Positions 3,476 to 17,457 of a stretch of 38,564 bases of DNA are shown in pieces. Every line of letters begins with the position of its first letter. Positions within the stretch are counted from its first letter, which is position 1. The position numbers were made by a program, and so were the translations under genes. The stretch spans positions 1-38,564 of the IMG/VR virus record IMGVR_UViG_3300027736_000103; one strand, written 5' to 3'. The notes beneath the pieces are model-generated. The model searched no databases. It had not been told where the DNA came from and worked only from the letters and a program-made list of their open reading frames with translations. The stretch comes from a virus.

Positions 3476-5356
3476 TCAAGCAGGCATCGGACCAGCTGGT
3501 TGGCCTTGCATTGCTTCCGGAGGCAACTGTTGTGCCTGGGCTTTCATTTGGGCCTTGCCTGCATCACGAAGCTGCTTCTGAATAGCGCGGGATGTGTTTG
3601 GATCGACCTGTTCAAGAGCCGCCAAGTGCTGTTGTAAATGTGCCATCAGAACTTGCATTGCACTCTGATCGACCTGTTGCTGCCTTGCTTGAGCCGCCTG
3701 GTTAAATGCGAACAGAACGGATATGTGCGCTTTGTGATCATCGCTAGGTTTGATTGCGACAGGGAATCCTGTAGCAAGCATCGTTGCAATTTCAGTCGCT
3801 TGATCTTCAGCCTGATCGCCAGAGGCTGCGTTCGGATCTTGGAAGAGTCTGCGGACCAGCGATGGATCATCTTGTTCAAGCACAGATTTAACCAGTTCGC
3901 CCTGGTTAACAAAAGGATTATTTTGGAACATCTGCATACGAGCTACCGACTTCTGCAATGCAAACTGCCGATTGATAAAGTCCAATCCACCTTTCGGTTC
4001 GATTGAATATTCATCATGGATACCATCCGGAGGCATAGAGCCTGTTTCCTCGGCATACCGATACATCAAGTCTTTCTTATTGTACTGCGTGTAAAGCGAC
4101 CAGCATTGTTTGAATAGATGGGCAAGACCCATCCGGAACATGCGATTACGAAGGTCACCGGAGGCGGCAGCTTGCGACTGCAATGCTTGAATCTCCGTGG
4201 CAGTCTTTCGATCCGATACCTGGAACTGCGATCCAGCACCGAAGTCAGGATTGCCCATGCGCTGTTCAGACAGCAAACGCTCCTCAAGCATGAGCTTCTG
4301 GAAATCAAATGGAGGTTGGCTGAACTGAACTGGCTTTAATCCCTGTGGCAGGATCTGACCAGGCTGCATCTTCAGATTCGATGTGTTCAACGAGATCGGG
4401 TTCTGTGCTTCGAAAACGGGTCGGTTGGCCAGTTCAACGTAATCGGAGAGGGAGTTCTTTAGTTTATTTAGCAGGTTCTCGTTCGGGAGCAGGATCTCTG
4501 CAACGCCTCTCGGACTGTACCAACCGCCCCCTGTGACCTCATAGGGGAAATCTACAAAAGGAGGTTCGCCGTGACGATACGGCAAAGTGAAAGGCTTACG
4601 GACATCTTCGGTTACGACAAGCGGGCTGTACGTTTCGACCTTCCATCCGTCTTCAGAAGGCGTGTACATCTCCCAAAGAATGATGCGATCATTCTCAGCT
4701 TCCTGAGTAATTCCTTCCCGTCTATAAATCTCATCCTGAATCTCACTTCGTAAGCCCACCGATTTGGAGGGTTTACCAGAAATTGTTTTGATAAATTCCT
4801 CATCCTGCTTGTACAGGGGATTTGCCTTATAGGAATCGACACTTGTCGAGACGATGTGAACGATGAAATCTGCATCCTTAAACTCCTTTGTGTAGGCCGG
4901 AACAATGATGTGGAAAGGATCAATAGCCTCGAAGTCGATGCGCTTCTTGTCCTCATTCCAAATGATCTTCGCAACTCCACGCCCATAGAGCAGGATATTG
5001 TCGATGACGGAAACAATCTCTTTTTGGAAATTTGTTTTCTCACGCATGTTGTAGTCAAACCAACGCTCTGCAGAAACAGTCAGCGGGGTCAACTGCTGGC
5101 GCATCGGAACAAAGCTGGAAAGGATGTCGTTGCCAATTGCGCTATTTACGAAGGATGGCTTCAGCTTCTCAATCGCTGTGTCGATCAACTGAACGTGAAG
5201 GTCGGCGGCGGTAGGCCAAGGCTTGACCTTCCGGCGAACACCAAAGTAGCGAGCCTGGTAAAATAACCGCTGCCGGTTCTCCCATGTCTCGCGCTGATTA
5301 AGCGAGTCAATAATTCTGGAATAATATTCTGTTCTACGGCTGTCTTTGGCGTTCAT
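3476..5356 (-). CDS. portal protein (head-tail connector)
   Basis: A 626-residue protein of portal size, encoded two genes downstream of the large terminase and upstream of scaffold and capsid. Portals form the dodecameric ring at the packaging vertex. Visible features include an N-terminal helical region with WPTAADLHVQLID, a hydrophobic segment IVSVIDNILLYGRGVAKIIW, a central WYSPRGVAEILLP, and the phrase SDRKTATEIQALQSQAAASG, which matches the long-helix wing region of podovirus portals. A Gln/Met-rich helical tail ends the protein. The start overlaps the preceding lipoprotein stop (ATGA). Family membership is inferred from these motifs and position. Confidence 0.85.
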   Translation of the reverse strand: MNAKDSRRTEYYSRIIDSLNQRETWENRQRLFYQARYFGVRRKVKPWPTAADLHVQLIDTAIEKLKPSFVNSAIGNDILSSFVPMRQQLTPLTVSAERWFDYNMREKTNFQKEIVSVIDNILLYGRGVAKIIWNEDKKRIDFEAIDPFHIIVPAYTKEFKDADFIVHIVSTSVDSYKANPLYKQDEEFIKTISGKPSKSVGLRSEIQDEIYRREGITQEAENDRIILWEMYTPSEDGWKVETYSPLVVTEDVRKPFTLPYRHGEPPFVDFPYEVTGGGWYSPRGVAEILLPNENLLNKLKNSLSDYVELANRPVFEAQNPISLNTSNLKMQPGQILPQGLKPVQFSQPPFDFQKLMLEERLLSEQRMGNPDFGAGSQFQVSDRKTATEIQALQSQAAASGDLRNRMFRMGLAHLFKQCWSLYTQYNKKDLMYRYAEETGSMPPDGIHDEYSIEPKGGLDFINRQFALQKSVARMQMFQNNPFVNQGELVKSVLEQDDPSLVRRLFQDPNAASGDQAEDQATEIATMLATGFPVAIKPSDDHKAHISVLFAFNQAAQARQQQVDQSAMQVLMAHLQQHLAALEQVDPNTSRAIQKQLRDAGKAQMKAQAQQLPPEAMQGQPAGPMPA

Positions 5357-13161: not shown

Positions 13162-13714
13162 TTGCCTCTATCCCCCGCCTCTCCTGCTCTGCCTTGATAG
13201 CAGCGTCAATCTTTTTGCATTCGGACATAGTGAAGAACTCATCCTTACACTCAGGGCATTGTGTTCTGGTTATGTTGGGTGCGGTGAAAGGCTCGCCGTT
13301 CAGTTTGCAAACCGAATCCATCTTGAGATCGCCAGTAAACTCAATCGTGTTTGACTTGCGACAAGTAGGGCATAGCTCTGCTGGCTTCTTTAATGCCTCC
13401 AATATCCTGTCAACCCTTTCTACTGATTGCCAGGGCAAAATGGTGTGTCTGCACCTAGGGCATCTTTCTAGGTCGAGGTCTTTAATAGTTTCCCCACCTA
13501 TGTGGTAGTCCTCGACTATTGCCTCGTAAGTTCCTTTCCAGCATTCTGCACACAAACCCTTCGGTGGTAGCATCCCATTCTCCATGGCAAGCTCGTCCAT
13601 GCCCTTAAGCATTCTATCCGAAATATCAGAAGGTCCGTCCTCAAGCCAACAATCATCTTGGGTTACGCAAAGCGTGTAGGTTTCCTCGCCCCAACGAAAC
13701 TTTACTTTGTTCAT
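13154..13714 (-). CDS. multi-zinc-ribbon protein
   Basis: A 186-residue protein with four CxxC knuckles: LCAECW, RCPRCRH, LCPTCRK and QCPECKD, likely folding into two or more zinc ribbons. A short beta-rich N-terminus precedes them (VKFRWGEETYTLCVTQ). Such proteins bind nucleic acids or other proteins. No catalytic domain is visible. It overlaps the glycosyltransferase stop by ATGA and the nuclease start by eight bases, so expression is probably linked. A transcription or translation regulator is possible, but not demonstrable here. Confidence 0.7.
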   Translation of the reverse strand: MNKVKFRWGEETYTLCVTQDDCWLEDGPSDISDRMLKGMDELAMENGMLPPKGLCAECWKGTYEAIVEDYHIGGETIKDLDLERCPRCRHTILPWQSVERVDRILEALKKPAELCPTCRKSNTIEFTGDLKMDSVCKLNGEPFTAPNITRTQCPECKDEFFTMSECKKIDAAIKAEQERRGIEANG

Positions 13715-14820
13715 TTCTTCTCCTCCAACTCCATCGCCTTCTTGCTCGCCTCAACAATATCCTCGGCTTTAATATTGCGGAGCGCATTGCACCACATCTG
13801 AGTCTTGGCTGTCTTGTTTGTCGCATCCTTGCACTTGGCCTGAGGCAATCCTGCATGCGGCCTGCATGGGGCATGAGGACATACTTCCGGCTTAAACACC
13901 GACACGTTCAGAGGGTAGAATTGCATTCTGTCAATTGGATCATACGATCCCCACAGCGACACGCACGGCGTATTAAGTCCGGCAGCGATGTGGTTTACAG
14001 AACTATCCGGTGCCACCACAAAGTCTGCGTTGGCCACGATAGGGAACAGCGAGCGGATCGCCTTGGTCGTATTGAACAAGTCAATGACTCTCGGATGATC
14101 GACATGAAAATTGTTGCTATTGTCCAGCCCAATAATCACGGCATGATGTTCGGGGAAAGCTTCCAGCAATGCTAGGACTGCATCCTGCCCCATCTTGGGT
14201 GGGTAGGTGCGAGTAGGTCCGGACGATGAAACGTGGTAGGCAAAATACTTCTCTGGTAACGGCCATTTGCCTAAAGCCTTGATCTCTTCATGGTCTGGTT
14301 CGATTAGGTGAAGCATGGGCTTGCAATACTTCGCCATCGTCTTCTCATCCCACACGCCCATCCACTCGTAGATCCGCTTGTAGCAATTGCCAGGACCAGT
14401 TCCGAGTTTCGTTTCCCCAACCTGACCGCTGAACAAATCGTCCGTGGGTAGGTGCGCATCGTATGAATCCCAAGCCTCTAGGGTGCATGGCAGCGGGTAA
14501 AGCTTTGCGCCTAGTCCTGCATAGAGCGGAAGGTTCCTAGCCGGTGCGTAAACATCGACTATCCCGCCAGACTCCTGCACCAAGTAGTTTACGAATGCAG
14601 TTGCGATCACGGCATCCCCAATCGCTCCAGCCCGATACACAGCTGTCGCTCCGCCTGTTGATCTGCCCTTATAGTACGGCTTGATCTTGTGTGGGCATGG
14701 GATTGAATCTAACCATATCCCACCGGTCAATTCATCTGGAATGACGTAGGTATTGCGAACATGAAGAAGGTTATCATCCACCTTGTGGATTGAATTGGTT
14801 TGGTTTGTCCATAGTTTCAT
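13711..14820 (-). CDS. glycosyltransferase family 9-like (heptosyltransferase-like)
   Basis: A 369-residue GT-B fold enzyme. The N-terminal GAIGDAVIATAFVNYLVQES is the classic start of the ADP-heptose:LPS heptosyltransferase family. The C-terminal half has ADFVVAPDSSVNHIAAGLN and CVSLWGSYDPIDR, the family's sugar-nucleotide site. About 60 residues precede the N-terminal motif, longer than in typical heptosyltransferases. In a phage it could alter host LPS to block superinfection, or glycosylate phage components. It is coupled by ATGA to the methyltransferase upstream. Family is confident; donor and acceptor are not. Confidence 0.85.
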   Translation of the reverse strand: MKLWTNQTNSIHKVDDNLLHVRNTYVIPDELTGGIWLDSIPCPHKIKPYYKGRSTGGATAVYRAGAIGDAVIATAFVNYLVQESGGIVDVYAPARNLPLYAGLGAKLYPLPCTLEAWDSYDAHLPTDDLFSGQVGETKLGTGPGNCYKRIYEWMGVWDEKTMAKYCKPMLHLIEPDHEEIKALGKWPLPEKYFAYHVSSSGPTRTYPPKMGQDAVLALLEAFPEHHAVIIGLDNSNNFHVDHPRVIDLFNTTKAIRSLFPIVANADFVVAPDSSVNHIAAGLNTPCVSLWGSYDPIDRMQFYPLNVSVFKPEVCPHAPCRPHAGLPQAKCKDATNKTAKTQMWCNALRNIKAEDIVEASKKAMELEEKK

Positions 14821-15803
14821 TTGTTATCCTCCATTACTTGGTTGATGCATCTGATGATTTCCGCCGCGACTTGCGGGACGATGGCATTTCCGAGTCCACG
14901 CAGTTTAGCCACTCGGTTGGGTACCCCATGAGCCACGCGACCCACGTTGGGTTCAGGGAGCCATTTACGTGGTTGCCATCCGCCGTCACCACTCTCCCCA
15001 ATGTGTCGACCCTGTTCTTCCCGTCTTTCCTTATCGTTGCCCTCAACTCCCCCGTGTCCTTCCAATCCCGTGCGCTGGCTGTTGGAAACATCACTGACTC
15101 GTTCACCGCTCTCACCAGACATCTGAACCGATTTTCTTTCGGATTCACGTTCGCTGAATTGTCCACCGTTGGTGTCGGCCACATCTTTACCGCAGTTTGA
15201 AGAGTTGCCCCCCACTTCGTTCCGTTGGCTGATGTCCTGCTCTTGCCGTCCTCGCTCACACTTCCGCTCTTTGCTCCCGTGTGTGCTCCCCTCGGACACG
15301 CTGACGGAGTCGGCCATATCTCTGGCGATGATCCAAACTCTGTCTCTTCTGTGCGGCGCGTCGACGGCGCAAGCTGGAATAATGATCGGTTCGACTTCGT
15401 AACCTTGACCTTCCAGATCAGCGCACACCTGGTCGAGTGCCAAATTGACGATCCCAGCAACATTCTCACCAATGATCCAAGCTGGCCTTGCTTCTTGTAT
15501 AACTCGCAACATTTCAGGCCAGAGGTAACGGTTGTCATCCTTGCCTCGTTGCTTGCCTGCGACTGAGAATGGTTGACATGGAAATCCACCTGTGAGAAGA
15601 GTGACTCCTGCGTATAGCTCGCCTCGTACTTCGCGGATGTCTTTGTGACACGGTACTTCGGGCCAATGTTTTTTGAGGACTGCTTGTGCGTATGGCTCGT
15701 TGTCACAGAAGCCAACGGTTCTATATCCATTCCACTTTGCTGCCAAGGCAAATCCTCCGATCCCGCTAAATAAATCGAGATGTGTTTTTTCATTCACTTT
15801 CAC
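14817..15803 (-). CDS. DNA (cytosine-5) methyltransferase
   Basis: A 328-residue enzyme that methylates cytosine C5 in DNA. Motif I is LFSGIGG (residues 11-17), motif IV GGFPCQPFS with catalytic Cys76, motif VI GENVAG (112-117), motif VIII APHRRDRVWI (149-158), and the C-terminal LRGLGNAIVPQVAAEII gives motifs IX-X. The region between (about 165-285), where target recognition should lie, is unusually hydrophilic and Gly/Ser/Glu-rich, apparently because another frame is constrained there. Start is GTG with AAGGA upstream. No cognate restriction enzyme is adjacent, so it is an orphan probably protecting phage DNA. Confidence 0.95.
   Translation of the reverse strand: MKVNEKTHLDLFSGIGGFALAAKWNGYRTVGFCDNEPYAQAVLKKHWPEVPCHKDIREVRGELYAGVTLLTGGFPCQPFSVAGKQRGKDDNRYLWPEMLRVIQEARPAWIIGENVAGIVNLALDQVCADLEGQGYEVEPIIIPACAVDAPHRRDRVWIIARDMADSVSVSEGSTHGSKERKCERGRQEQDISQRNEVGGNSSNCGKDVADTNGGQFSERESERKSVQMSGESGERVSDVSNSQRTGLEGHGGVEGNDKERREEQGRHIGESGDGGWQPRKWLPEPNVGRVAHGVPNRVAKLRGLGNAIVPQVAAEIIRCINQVMEDNK
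14834..15793 (-). CDS. overprinted 319-residue frame inside the methyltransferase gene
   Basis: An open frame of 960 bases in the +1 frame relative to the methyltransferase, covering almost all of it. The translation has FQLAPSTRRTEETEF, then three similar units (IWPTPSA, MWPTPTV, MFPTASARDWKDTG) and LNPTWVAWLMGYPTEWL near the end. I recall WPTP and LNPxWVEWLMG motifs in phage proteins linked to cytosine methylases. Its ATG overlaps the previous gene's stop (ATGA). It lacks a strong ribosome site, so coupling would be needed. It may be a methylase partner, or partly conserved as a shadow of the other frame. Confidence 0.55.
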   Translation of the reverse strand: MKKHISIYLAGSEDLPWQQSGMDIEPLASVTTSHTHKQSSKNIGPKYRVTKTSAKYEASYTQESLFSQVDFHVNHSQSQASNEARMTTVTSGLKCCELYKKQGQLGSLVRMLLGSSIWHSTRCALIWKVKVTKSNRSLFQLAPSTRRTEETEFGSSPEIWPTPSACPRGAHTGAKSGSVSEDGKSRTSANGTKWGATLQTAVKMWPTPTVDNSANVNPKENRFRCLVRAVNESVMFPTASARDWKDTGELRATIRKDGKNRVDTLGRVVTADGNHVNGSLNPTWVAWLMGYPTEWLNCVDSEMPSSRKSRRKSSDASTK

Positions 15804-15969
15804 TTATTTCCTTACACACCAAAGCCGCAGCATCGACCAAGGCAATGATCTGGATAATGTCAATCGCATGTCCGTGGTTCGCGCGATCCCTCTCTACCGC
15901 CAGTTTTCCTCTGGCAGAGAGAAGGATGTCGCACGCCCACTTGAGGCGGTCTTTTGCCTCTACTTCCAT
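15790..15969 (-). CDS. small hypothetical protein upstream of methyltransferase
   Basis: A 59-residue helical protein (MEVEAKDRLKWACDILLSAR, then HGHAIDIIQIIALVDAAALV, ending ISESE). No family recognised. Its start shares the A of TAATG with the previous stop. Its 3' end contains the GTG start of the methyltransferase and overlaps by ATGA the start of the second frame. This tight packing makes it almost certainly translated, and it may set the relative output of the two overlapping frames. Confidence 0.7.
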   Translation of the reverse strand: MEVEAKDRLKWACDILLSARGKLAVERDRANHGHAIDIIQIIALVDAAALVCKEISESE

Positions 15970-16163: not shown

Positions 16164-16754
16164 CTATGCTGTTTCTTCACCAACCACATCATCCCATGTG
16201 GCCTGTTCCCCATGCCATACCTGAGACTGCGTCCGCAGCCAATTAGGCTTATCGCCTGGAGTGGTGAAGCTTGATTCTTTCCAAAGGACATTGTTACCAG
16301 GGACCGCTGTGATACGCCCATTGAGAAGTGCGATGAAATGATGTGACTTGGTTTGTTCCGGAGCCATTGAGAATCCATCCCCGTAAGGTTCGGCTGTGAA
16401 CATGTAGCGACCAACCTCCCATGTCTTCCTGCTGGCAATCCATACCCTGCAAGACAATCCCATGAGATAATCGTATTCAATCGTTGTGAAGTTCCAGCCA
16501 AAACAATCCCATCGTTGCGCATCGTTAATGTCCCAATCCATAATTGCAATCTCGCCATGAGCCAAAGCGTGCAATGGCAAGCCTCGGTACAGCGCACCGC
16601 ACTTGAGCATCACAGTGCAACCCCAAGCTCGCCCAGGTACTGCGGTTAGTCCGAACCAAACAGCGTCTTCCAGACCTTGCTTCTGGCCATCAGAGACAAA
16701 CTCCATGTCGCACTTGACATAGAGATGGCGAGGCAGATTAGCAGCGTGGGTCAT
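16164..16754 (-). CDS. conserved phage hypothetical protein
   Basis: A 196-residue protein of no assigned function. It is rich in aromatic residues and looks like a compact alpha/beta or beta fold: WFGLTAVPGRAWGCTVML, LPLHALAHGE, DAQRWDCFGWNF, then YMFTAEPYGDGFSMAPEQTK and KSHHFIALLNGRITA. Several conserved-looking Trp, His and Cys residues could form an active or metal site. I chose the ATG at 16754, whose ATGA overlaps the oxygenase stop; GTG at 16793 is possible. Close coupling to the oxygenase suggests a joint pathway. Confidence 0.75.
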   Translation of the reverse strand: MTHAANLPRHLYVKCDMEFVSDGQKQGLEDAVWFGLTAVPGRAWGCTVMLKCGALYRGLPLHALAHGEIAIMDWDINDAQRWDCFGWNFTTIEYDYLMGLSCRVWIASRKTWEVGRYMFTAEPYGDGFSMAPEQTKSHHFIALLNGRITAVPGNNVLWKESSFTTPGDKPNWLRTQSQVWHGEQATWDDVVGEETA

Positions 16755-17317
16755 CTCCATGCTGATCCTGTAAACCAAGCTACCAACACCCACCTAGTAC
16801 CCCATATCGGAGCACGGGCGCGATGTTCTAGGTAGGACGGGAACCAACATCCGGCTCCCTGTTCTCGGATAAACTGCACGTTGTCGATGTCGGCCTTGAT
16901 CTGCAATCCACCACCCAAATATTCAGAAGGATCGGATAGGTTGACTACTGCCGTAAGTTTCCTGTCGCTTCCGTTGTATAGGTCATAGTGCCACATGAAT
17001 CTCTGGAATGCGTTGTACTTTAGGATCTGTAACTGTTGCACTCCGGTAATATCAAACCTCCAATTATCATCGTTGATAGCCTTGGTAAGCTCATTCATAA
17101 TGTTGTAGATCCATTTATGATGCTGGCTGTTTGGAACCCAGCATGACGAGCACGTTCTGGTGTATGATCTTTTTGTCGTTCCATCCTTGTTCATAACAGC
17201 CGCGCGTTTCATTCCTATGATCTGCGCGTCATCCCGCAACATCATGCATTGCGCCGGAGTGAGAACATATCTGTCAACCGCTGCGCTCATTAACTTCTGT
17301 ATATATTTCTTTTCCAT
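16751..17317 (-). CDS. 2-oxoglutarate/Fe(II)-dependent oxygenase
   Basis: A 188-residue dioxygenase of the PKHD/prolyl-hydroxylase-like type. The iron triad is visible: WHYD gives H110 and D112, LEHRA gives H165, and R175 in GTRWVLVAWF should bind 2-oxoglutarate. The typical strand LTAVVNLSDP and the GGGLQI turn lie between. Such enzymes are common in aquatic phages and hydroxylate proteins, nucleic acids or small molecules; the target is unknown. The ATG at 17317 follows AAAAGGAATTAG and shares TAATG with the membrane peptide gene upstream. Confidence 0.85.
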   Translation of the reverse strand: MEKKYIQKLMSAAVDRYVLTPAQCMMLRDDAQIIGMKRAAVMNKDGTTKRSYTRTCSSCWVPNSQHHKWIYNIMNELTKAINDDNWRFDITGVQQLQILKYNAFQRFMWHYDLYNGSDRKLTAVVNLSDPSEYLGGGLQIKADIDNVQFIREQGAGCWFPSYLEHRARAPIWGTRWVLVAWFTGSAWR

Positions 17318-17457
17318 TATTCTAATTCCTTTTTTATCCAGCAGAACAATGCATAAACACCAAACAACAGGAATGCGAGTAAAGATGCCAGCAGGGACAT
17401 GTAAAGAACAACCCAGCAAGCAACCCATGCAAAATCTGCTATTGCTGTGAGCATCAT
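17317..17457 (-). CDS. 46-residue membrane protein
   Basis: A small protein that is nearly all one long hydrophobic stretch (VACWVVLYMSLLASLLAFLL, then FGVYALFCW) with a basic-acidic tail IKKELE, predicted to span the membrane once or twice. Its start shares ATGA with the gene upstream and its stop shares TAATG with the oxygenase. No function can be assigned. Confidence 0.65.
   Translation of the reverse strand: MMLTAIADFAWVACWVVLYMSLLASLLAFLLFGVYALFCWIKKELE

Follow-up and report, generated by a model that had tools for sequence, protein, structure and literature searches.

The question raised by this locus is whether a long open frame lying out of register inside a phage cytosine methyltransferase gene encodes a protein of its own, and how such a protein would relate to the enzyme that it overlaps. 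The window, meaning the whole stretch of DNA analysed, is a 38.6-kb virus record (38,564 nt) with tailed-phage genes (major head protein, portal, terminase, endolysin, and tail fiber). The methyltransferase frame is called M and the overlapping frame W, and their positions are as follows.

14817..15803, minus strand: M, C5 methyltransferase alpha-like subunit, 328 codons, with an alternative start at GTG 15797
14834..15793, minus strand: W, overlapped beta-like protein, 319 codons, in the +1 frame of M and inside M
15790..15813, minus strand: start region, with AAGGA at 15809-15813, GTG 15803, GTG 15797, and the ATG of W at 15793
15790..15969, minus strand: upstream 59-codon ORF, whose stop TGA overlaps the ATG of W (ATGA)

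The initial annotation, made from the sequence alone, had described a 319-codon frame running in +1 through nearly the whole methyltransferase gene. This claim held, and the coordinates, the three repeated units, and the segment LNPTWVAWLMGYP were confirmed. The codon positions of the two frames are related as w1=m2, w2=m3, and w3=next m1. The units IWPTPSA, MWPTPTV, and MFPTASA of W lie opposite MADSVS, VADTNG, and VSDVSN of M, respectively, and LNPTWVAWLMGYP lies opposite EPNVGRVAHGVPNRV of the M frame. The ATGA overlap with the stop of the 59-codon ORF and the assignment of a GTG with AAGGA to M also held, the AAGGA being placed 5 nt upstream of GTG 15803. However, because [A/G]TGAATGA recurs at the start region among close relatives, M may instead begin at GTG 15797, 4 nt before the ATG of W. 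With the two starts this close in the recurring sequence, it can be inferred that a single ribosome-binding site may serve both M and W in this clade. The 59-codon ORF matched no family at a useful E-value in Pfam and phrog profile searches. The gene directly downstream of M (13711-14820, minus strand) matches glycosyltransferase family 9 (PF01075, 2.2e-07), and neighbouring genes at 16164-17428 (minus strand) gave matches to phrog_61, a 2OG-Fe(II) oxygenase family, and to phrog_3704, which carries the label 'ferredoxin'.

The openness of W was compared with expectation by synonymous shuffling. None of 20,000 shuffles, in which the M protein and its codon usage were held fixed, gave a +1 opening of at least 319 codons (median 96, maximum 286). 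Across 171 loci, the W region contained 0 stops against 830 expected from synonymous shuffling of M, and the +2 frame contained 2393 against 2391 expected. The zero was partly built in, since the region had been trimmed to the open frame of W, and the information in this test lies in the length of W, how often it recurs, and the +2 control. Residues 1-57 of W, an extension confined to close relatives, give a less conditioned count: 62 of these relatives showed 1 stop against 64 expected (+2 frame, 149 against 152). At the other 148 loci the same region held 353 W-frame stops against 258 expected, and W therefore starts later there, near residue 58. The M frame across the W-dominated region had 0 stops against 423 expected, in loci required to have M open. 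Stop counts overstate the evidence to an unknown degree, as related sequences are non-independent.

The nested arrangement is shared by hundreds of other phages and prophages. W was matched by tblastn in 206 phage records; its homologues are annotated in a few of them (Rani gp51 'g50 internal gene', Lily gp63 'g62 internal gene', and K1ind2 ORF28 'putative Mte8-like protein'), and the regions inspected in E. coli and Enterobacter have an annotation for M alone. At the 80 viral loci nearest to W, both frames were open in nearly all and the third frame was broken. The overlapping ORF matched the methyltransferase profile at all 80 bacterial loci selected by W, and in the divergent class (K1ind2 type) W lay in the +1 frame of M at 80/80 loci. 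An overlapping M was found at 240/240 W-selected loci, about ten of which were frame-disrupted, and no standalone W gene occurred among these 240. Since loci chosen by W could be biased, a set picked by M similarity was added, and 80/80 of its viral loci carry an open W; the M profile itself was built from W-type enzymes. W matched none of 56 canonical C5 methyltransferases from bacterial genomes, and the +1 stops in these 56 genes were at expectation (1181 vs 1197).

A frame shift inside the overlap was seen in 5 of the 80 W-nearest viral loci (L023, L043, L054, L062, and L063), and M was broken or split in 5 of the 80 W-selected bacterial loci (L121, L134, L135, L138, and L161). In L134 (2790-4089) and L135 (2238-3522), many stops interrupt the M frame past motif VIII, and the ORF of W extends in frame into motif X, giving an AquI-like split. 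In L054, L062, and L063, a run of 9 or 10 G in the overlap near locus position 3546 shifts the frames: with 9 G (L062), one ORF comprises motifs I-VIII of M and the end of W, and with 10 G (L054 and L063), one ORF comprises the start of W and motif X of M. These shifts may be due to assembly error, slippage, or phase variation.

Selection was measured using 118 pairs (70-93% identity), in which each change was classed by what it does to the two frames. Over M residues 10-160, omega_M was 0.18 and omega_W was 0.67 (0.56-0.79); over residues 161-322, omega_M was 0.69 and omega_W was 0.51 (0.44-0.59). The +2 frame control gave 1.61 and 1.72 for the two regions, and the +1 frame of the terminase gene in the same phage group gave 1.12 (0.93-1.35); all intervals are bootstraps over codons only. 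Purifying selection acts on W, and on both frames. The fastest codon position was m3 over M1-160 and again from residue 301 on, and it was m1, the third position of W, in every 20-codon bin of M161-300, although the 221-240 bin was data-poor. The switch falls at the borders of the recognition region. At M81-140, where the conserved core of W lies, m3 (=w2) was slowed to 0.13-0.18 vs 0.27-0.30 at M1-60. The codon-position rates and this slowing show a handover of constraint: coding is chiefly in the M frame for motifs I-VIII and X and chiefly in the W frame for the stretch between them, with W under constraint even ahead of motif VIII. The word 'overprinted' fits only the N-terminal half of W; in the recognition region, W behaves as the main frame and M as the shadow.

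M passes the criteria for a C5 cytosine methyltransferase, with motifs I-VIII including the PCQ loop and a large-domain fold, and it matches PF00145 (4.8e-43) and phrog_363 (4.8e-78). It fails as a complete single chain, as the PF00145 match covers residues 9-207 only and residues 175-292 are disordered. Its parts are listed below.

15324..15782, minus strand: M residues 8-160, motifs I-VIII, catalytic large domain, pLDDT mostly above 85
14928..15281, minus strand: M residues 175-292, linker replacing the recognition domain, pLDDT 35-57, fold not predicted
14856..14897, minus strand: M residues 303-316, motif X LGNAIVPQVAAEII, next helix with pLDDT above 90

The AlphaFold model of M, built with 50 natural sequences, was confident for motifs I-VIII and the motif X helix and showed no secondary structure for residues 175-292. 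Motif X retains the conserved G305, N306, and P310. Foldseek matched M to M.HhaI (E 1.5e-13) with about 165-180 of 327 columns aligned, and both the Pfam and M.HhaI alignments reach the large domain only. As residues 175-292 are unfolded in the model and the Foldseek alignment is partial, M appears to lack the small domain, and it is predicted by the model to have no folded recognition domain. A motif IX pattern was found in 0/210 W-type M proteins, but the pattern is insensitive and detected only 16/56 canonical enzymes.

Comparison of the 319-residue translation with protein databases, which had been suggested initially, matched W to phrog_1008 (2.5e-31; W residues 42-304 to profile positions 14-288 of 329), a family labelled 'DNA methyltransferase'. 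No Pfam or NCBIfam model matched W. Three regions are distinguished.

15356..15622, minus strand: W residues 58-146, conserved core (helix, helix, beta hairpin), pLDDT up to 91
14960..15346, minus strand: W residues 150-278, variable region with WPTP-type modules at 160, 205, and 236
14900..14959, minus strand: W residues 279-298, SLNPTWVAWLMGYPTEWLNC, motif-IX-like end

Conservation in the W profile starts at about residue 58. The WPTP modules number 1-6 per W protein and are spaced about 35 aa apart, and such a variable array would suit a recognition region. The pattern LNPxWVxWLMGxP is present in 79/80 W proteins and is placed between motifs VIII and X, 113 aa-equivalents past motif VIII (canonical 120) and 9 aa-equivalents before motif X (canonical 16). 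In hhalign against canonical C5 methyltransferases, the W end SLNPTWVAWLMGYPTEW aligned best to motif IX RLTPKECQKLQGFPDWF; the match was weak (E 0.052, probability 1%), and the possible likeness is suggestive only and not significant. The AlphaFold model of W alone was poor (mean 58), except for the helix-helix-hairpin core and the terminal helices. Foldseek with this low-confidence model and the W profile against PDB sequences each gave zero matches, and hhalign of W against M's own frame gave nothing.

The conserved GRVAHGVPNRV of M, found in 128/210 W-type proteins vs 0/56 canonical ones, was considered as a pure shadow of LNPxWVxWLMGxP. This reading was toned down because a similar NRVxRLKxxGN segment is separate from LNPxWVxWLMGxP in Rani, L134, and L135, and part of the motif is assigned to M.

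M and W are likely to be two subunits of one DNA cytosine-C5 methyltransferase, with W as a nested beta subunit carrying the recognition region. The data establish the overlap and how widely it is conserved, the selection on each frame, and the handover, and structure prediction indicates that M has no folded recognition domain. Expression, assembly, methylation, and the role of W as a recognition and motif IX subunit are inferred, and no expression or activity data are available. We favour this reading because W is present in 80/80 M-selected loci, always overlaps M, and is absent from canonical enzymes; because omega_W is below 1, compared with the +2-frame and terminase controls; and because the fastest position passes from m3 to m1 (=w3) and back to m3 at the recognition-region borders. 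It is further based on the unfolded residues 175-292 of M, while motifs I-VIII and X fold, on the location of LNPxWVxWLMGxP at the place of motif IX with its best, albeit weak, alignment to that motif, on the W ORF running into motif X in L134 and L135, where M is broken after VIII, and on the fact that split C5 methyltransferases function naturally (M.EcoHK31I and M.AquI; PMC3404938). In the proposed enzyme, M (alpha) would supply SAM binding, the catalytic large domain (I-VIII), and the closing helix (motif X), with an unstructured linker between them. W (beta), read in +1 from its own start, would form the small DNA-recognition domain from its core, variable WPTP array, and motif-IX-like end. 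M would carry the catalytic loop, the contribution of W being to complete the DNA-binding cleft and to define the target, and the assembled enzyme would methylate phage DNA, probably against host restriction. The points against this reading are the non-significant motif IX match, the poor model of W, the empty Foldseek search, and the recognition domain of M.EcoHK31I, which is predicted on alpha, unlike at the W locus.

The proposal in the initial annotation of an overprinted partner protein is supported in a refined form, in which W is probably the methyltransferase's own small domain and not a foreign protein. Stops in the W frame in most homologous methyltransferase genes, or selection on the methyltransferase frame only, would have refuted it. 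Neither was the case, as W is open in the M-selected loci and both frames are selected, W more strictly over the recognition region.

M.EcoHK31I (YGGCCR) is the closest known system, and with the motif IX match weak, the function of W is inferred. It is a two-polypeptide C5 methyltransferase (Lee et al. 1995, described in PMC3404938), in which the large subunit carries motifs I-VIII and X, the small subunit carries motif IX, and the recognition domain is predicted on alpha (PMC3404938). The small gene is reportedly nested out of frame in the large gene. Similarly, M resembles an alpha subunit with I-VIII and X and without IX, and the W gene is nested in another frame. In contrast to M.EcoHK31I, M lacks a folded recognition domain and the constrained variable region is on W; M.EcoHK31I also belongs to a restriction-modification system, whereas no endonuclease was recognised beside M. 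Searches of the E. coli and plasmid collections did not recover the EcoHK31I sequence, and only orphan phage or prophage methyltransferases surfaced. M.AquI (CYCGRG) is a split C5 methyltransferase whose two polypeptides form one enzyme (PMC3404938). L134 and L135 resemble it, being split into I-VIII and then the recognition region, IX, and X; unlike in M.AquI, motif X of the window belongs to M, and the second gene lies within the first. Phrog_1008 and the annotated internal ORFs (Rani gp51, Lily gp63, and K1ind2 ORF28) are W homologues in the same overlapped place, but their labels ('DNA methyltransferase', 'internal gene', 'Mte8-like') come without a function or evidence of selection. ShiLan also has an out-of-frame protein within a phage methylase gene, an HNH endonuclease (PMC11855218), which, unlike W, is a mobile inserted homing endonuclease rather than a conserved partner that extends across the catalytic motifs. 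No paper on the W family or this overlap was found in the open-access literature searched, with most subscription papers outside its scope.

Other explanations were weighed against the two-subunit reading. W could be a real but separate overprinted protein, such as a methylase regulator or an anti-defence factor. It has its own start, a conserved N-terminal core over motifs IV-VIII, and no significant homology to a known recognition domain. We consider this unlikely, however: M has no folded recognition domain and constraint passes to W exactly there, W was never found without M, and W is fused to motif X in L134 and L135. Still less credible is that two programmed frameshifts yield a single chain (M frame for I-VIII, W frame for recognition and IX, M frame for X) without a separate W, which we regard as very unlikely. 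The handover does resemble one coding path changing frame twice, and L062 and L138 read I-VIII and the end of W in one ORF. Nevertheless, constraint on W is evident ahead of the first border (a slowed m3 at M81-140 and an omega_W of 0.67 across M10-160), M remains open through the linker (0 vs 423 stops, in loci required to have M open), and the extension of W to its start is kept open in close relatives.

That the open W frame is an untranslated by-product of the M protein sequence and codon use is all but excluded. Limits on the +1 frame do follow from the conserved motifs of M, and related phages can inherit an opening, but the synonymous shuffles, the +2 frame, the canonical methyltransferases, and the terminase control all speak against it, as do the codon-position rates reversed over M161-300.

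M and W provide a long, strongly supported case of two proteins on one DNA stretch, in which constraint visibly shifts between frames. Should W be the recognition subunit, the annotation of many phage methyltransferases covers only half of the enzyme, specificity predictions would be directed at the wrong frame, and W would be lost from a recoded synthetic version of the annotated gene, which would probably yield an inactive enzyme. The two-subunit reading also offers a testable path among single-chain, split, and nested enzymes. A bolder version, for which we see as much reason to hesitate as to believe, is that a large class of phage C5 methyltransferases, entered in databases as single proteins, has its specificity in a mostly unannotated overlapping gene with a variable WPTP recognition array; the annotated enzyme would be inactive alone, and specificity would evolve in one frame with the other reduced to a linker.

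Some loci showed further variation. In L090 (Komagataeibacter phage phiKX1, 2239-3885), M carries a long additional segment after the end of W and before motif X. The W-type methyltransferase of an E. coli Ec1117 prophage (L338, 2863-4032) is annotated as two incomplete pieces. Five matching copies of the methyltransferase locus (L125-L129) were present on one Roseovarius chromosome.
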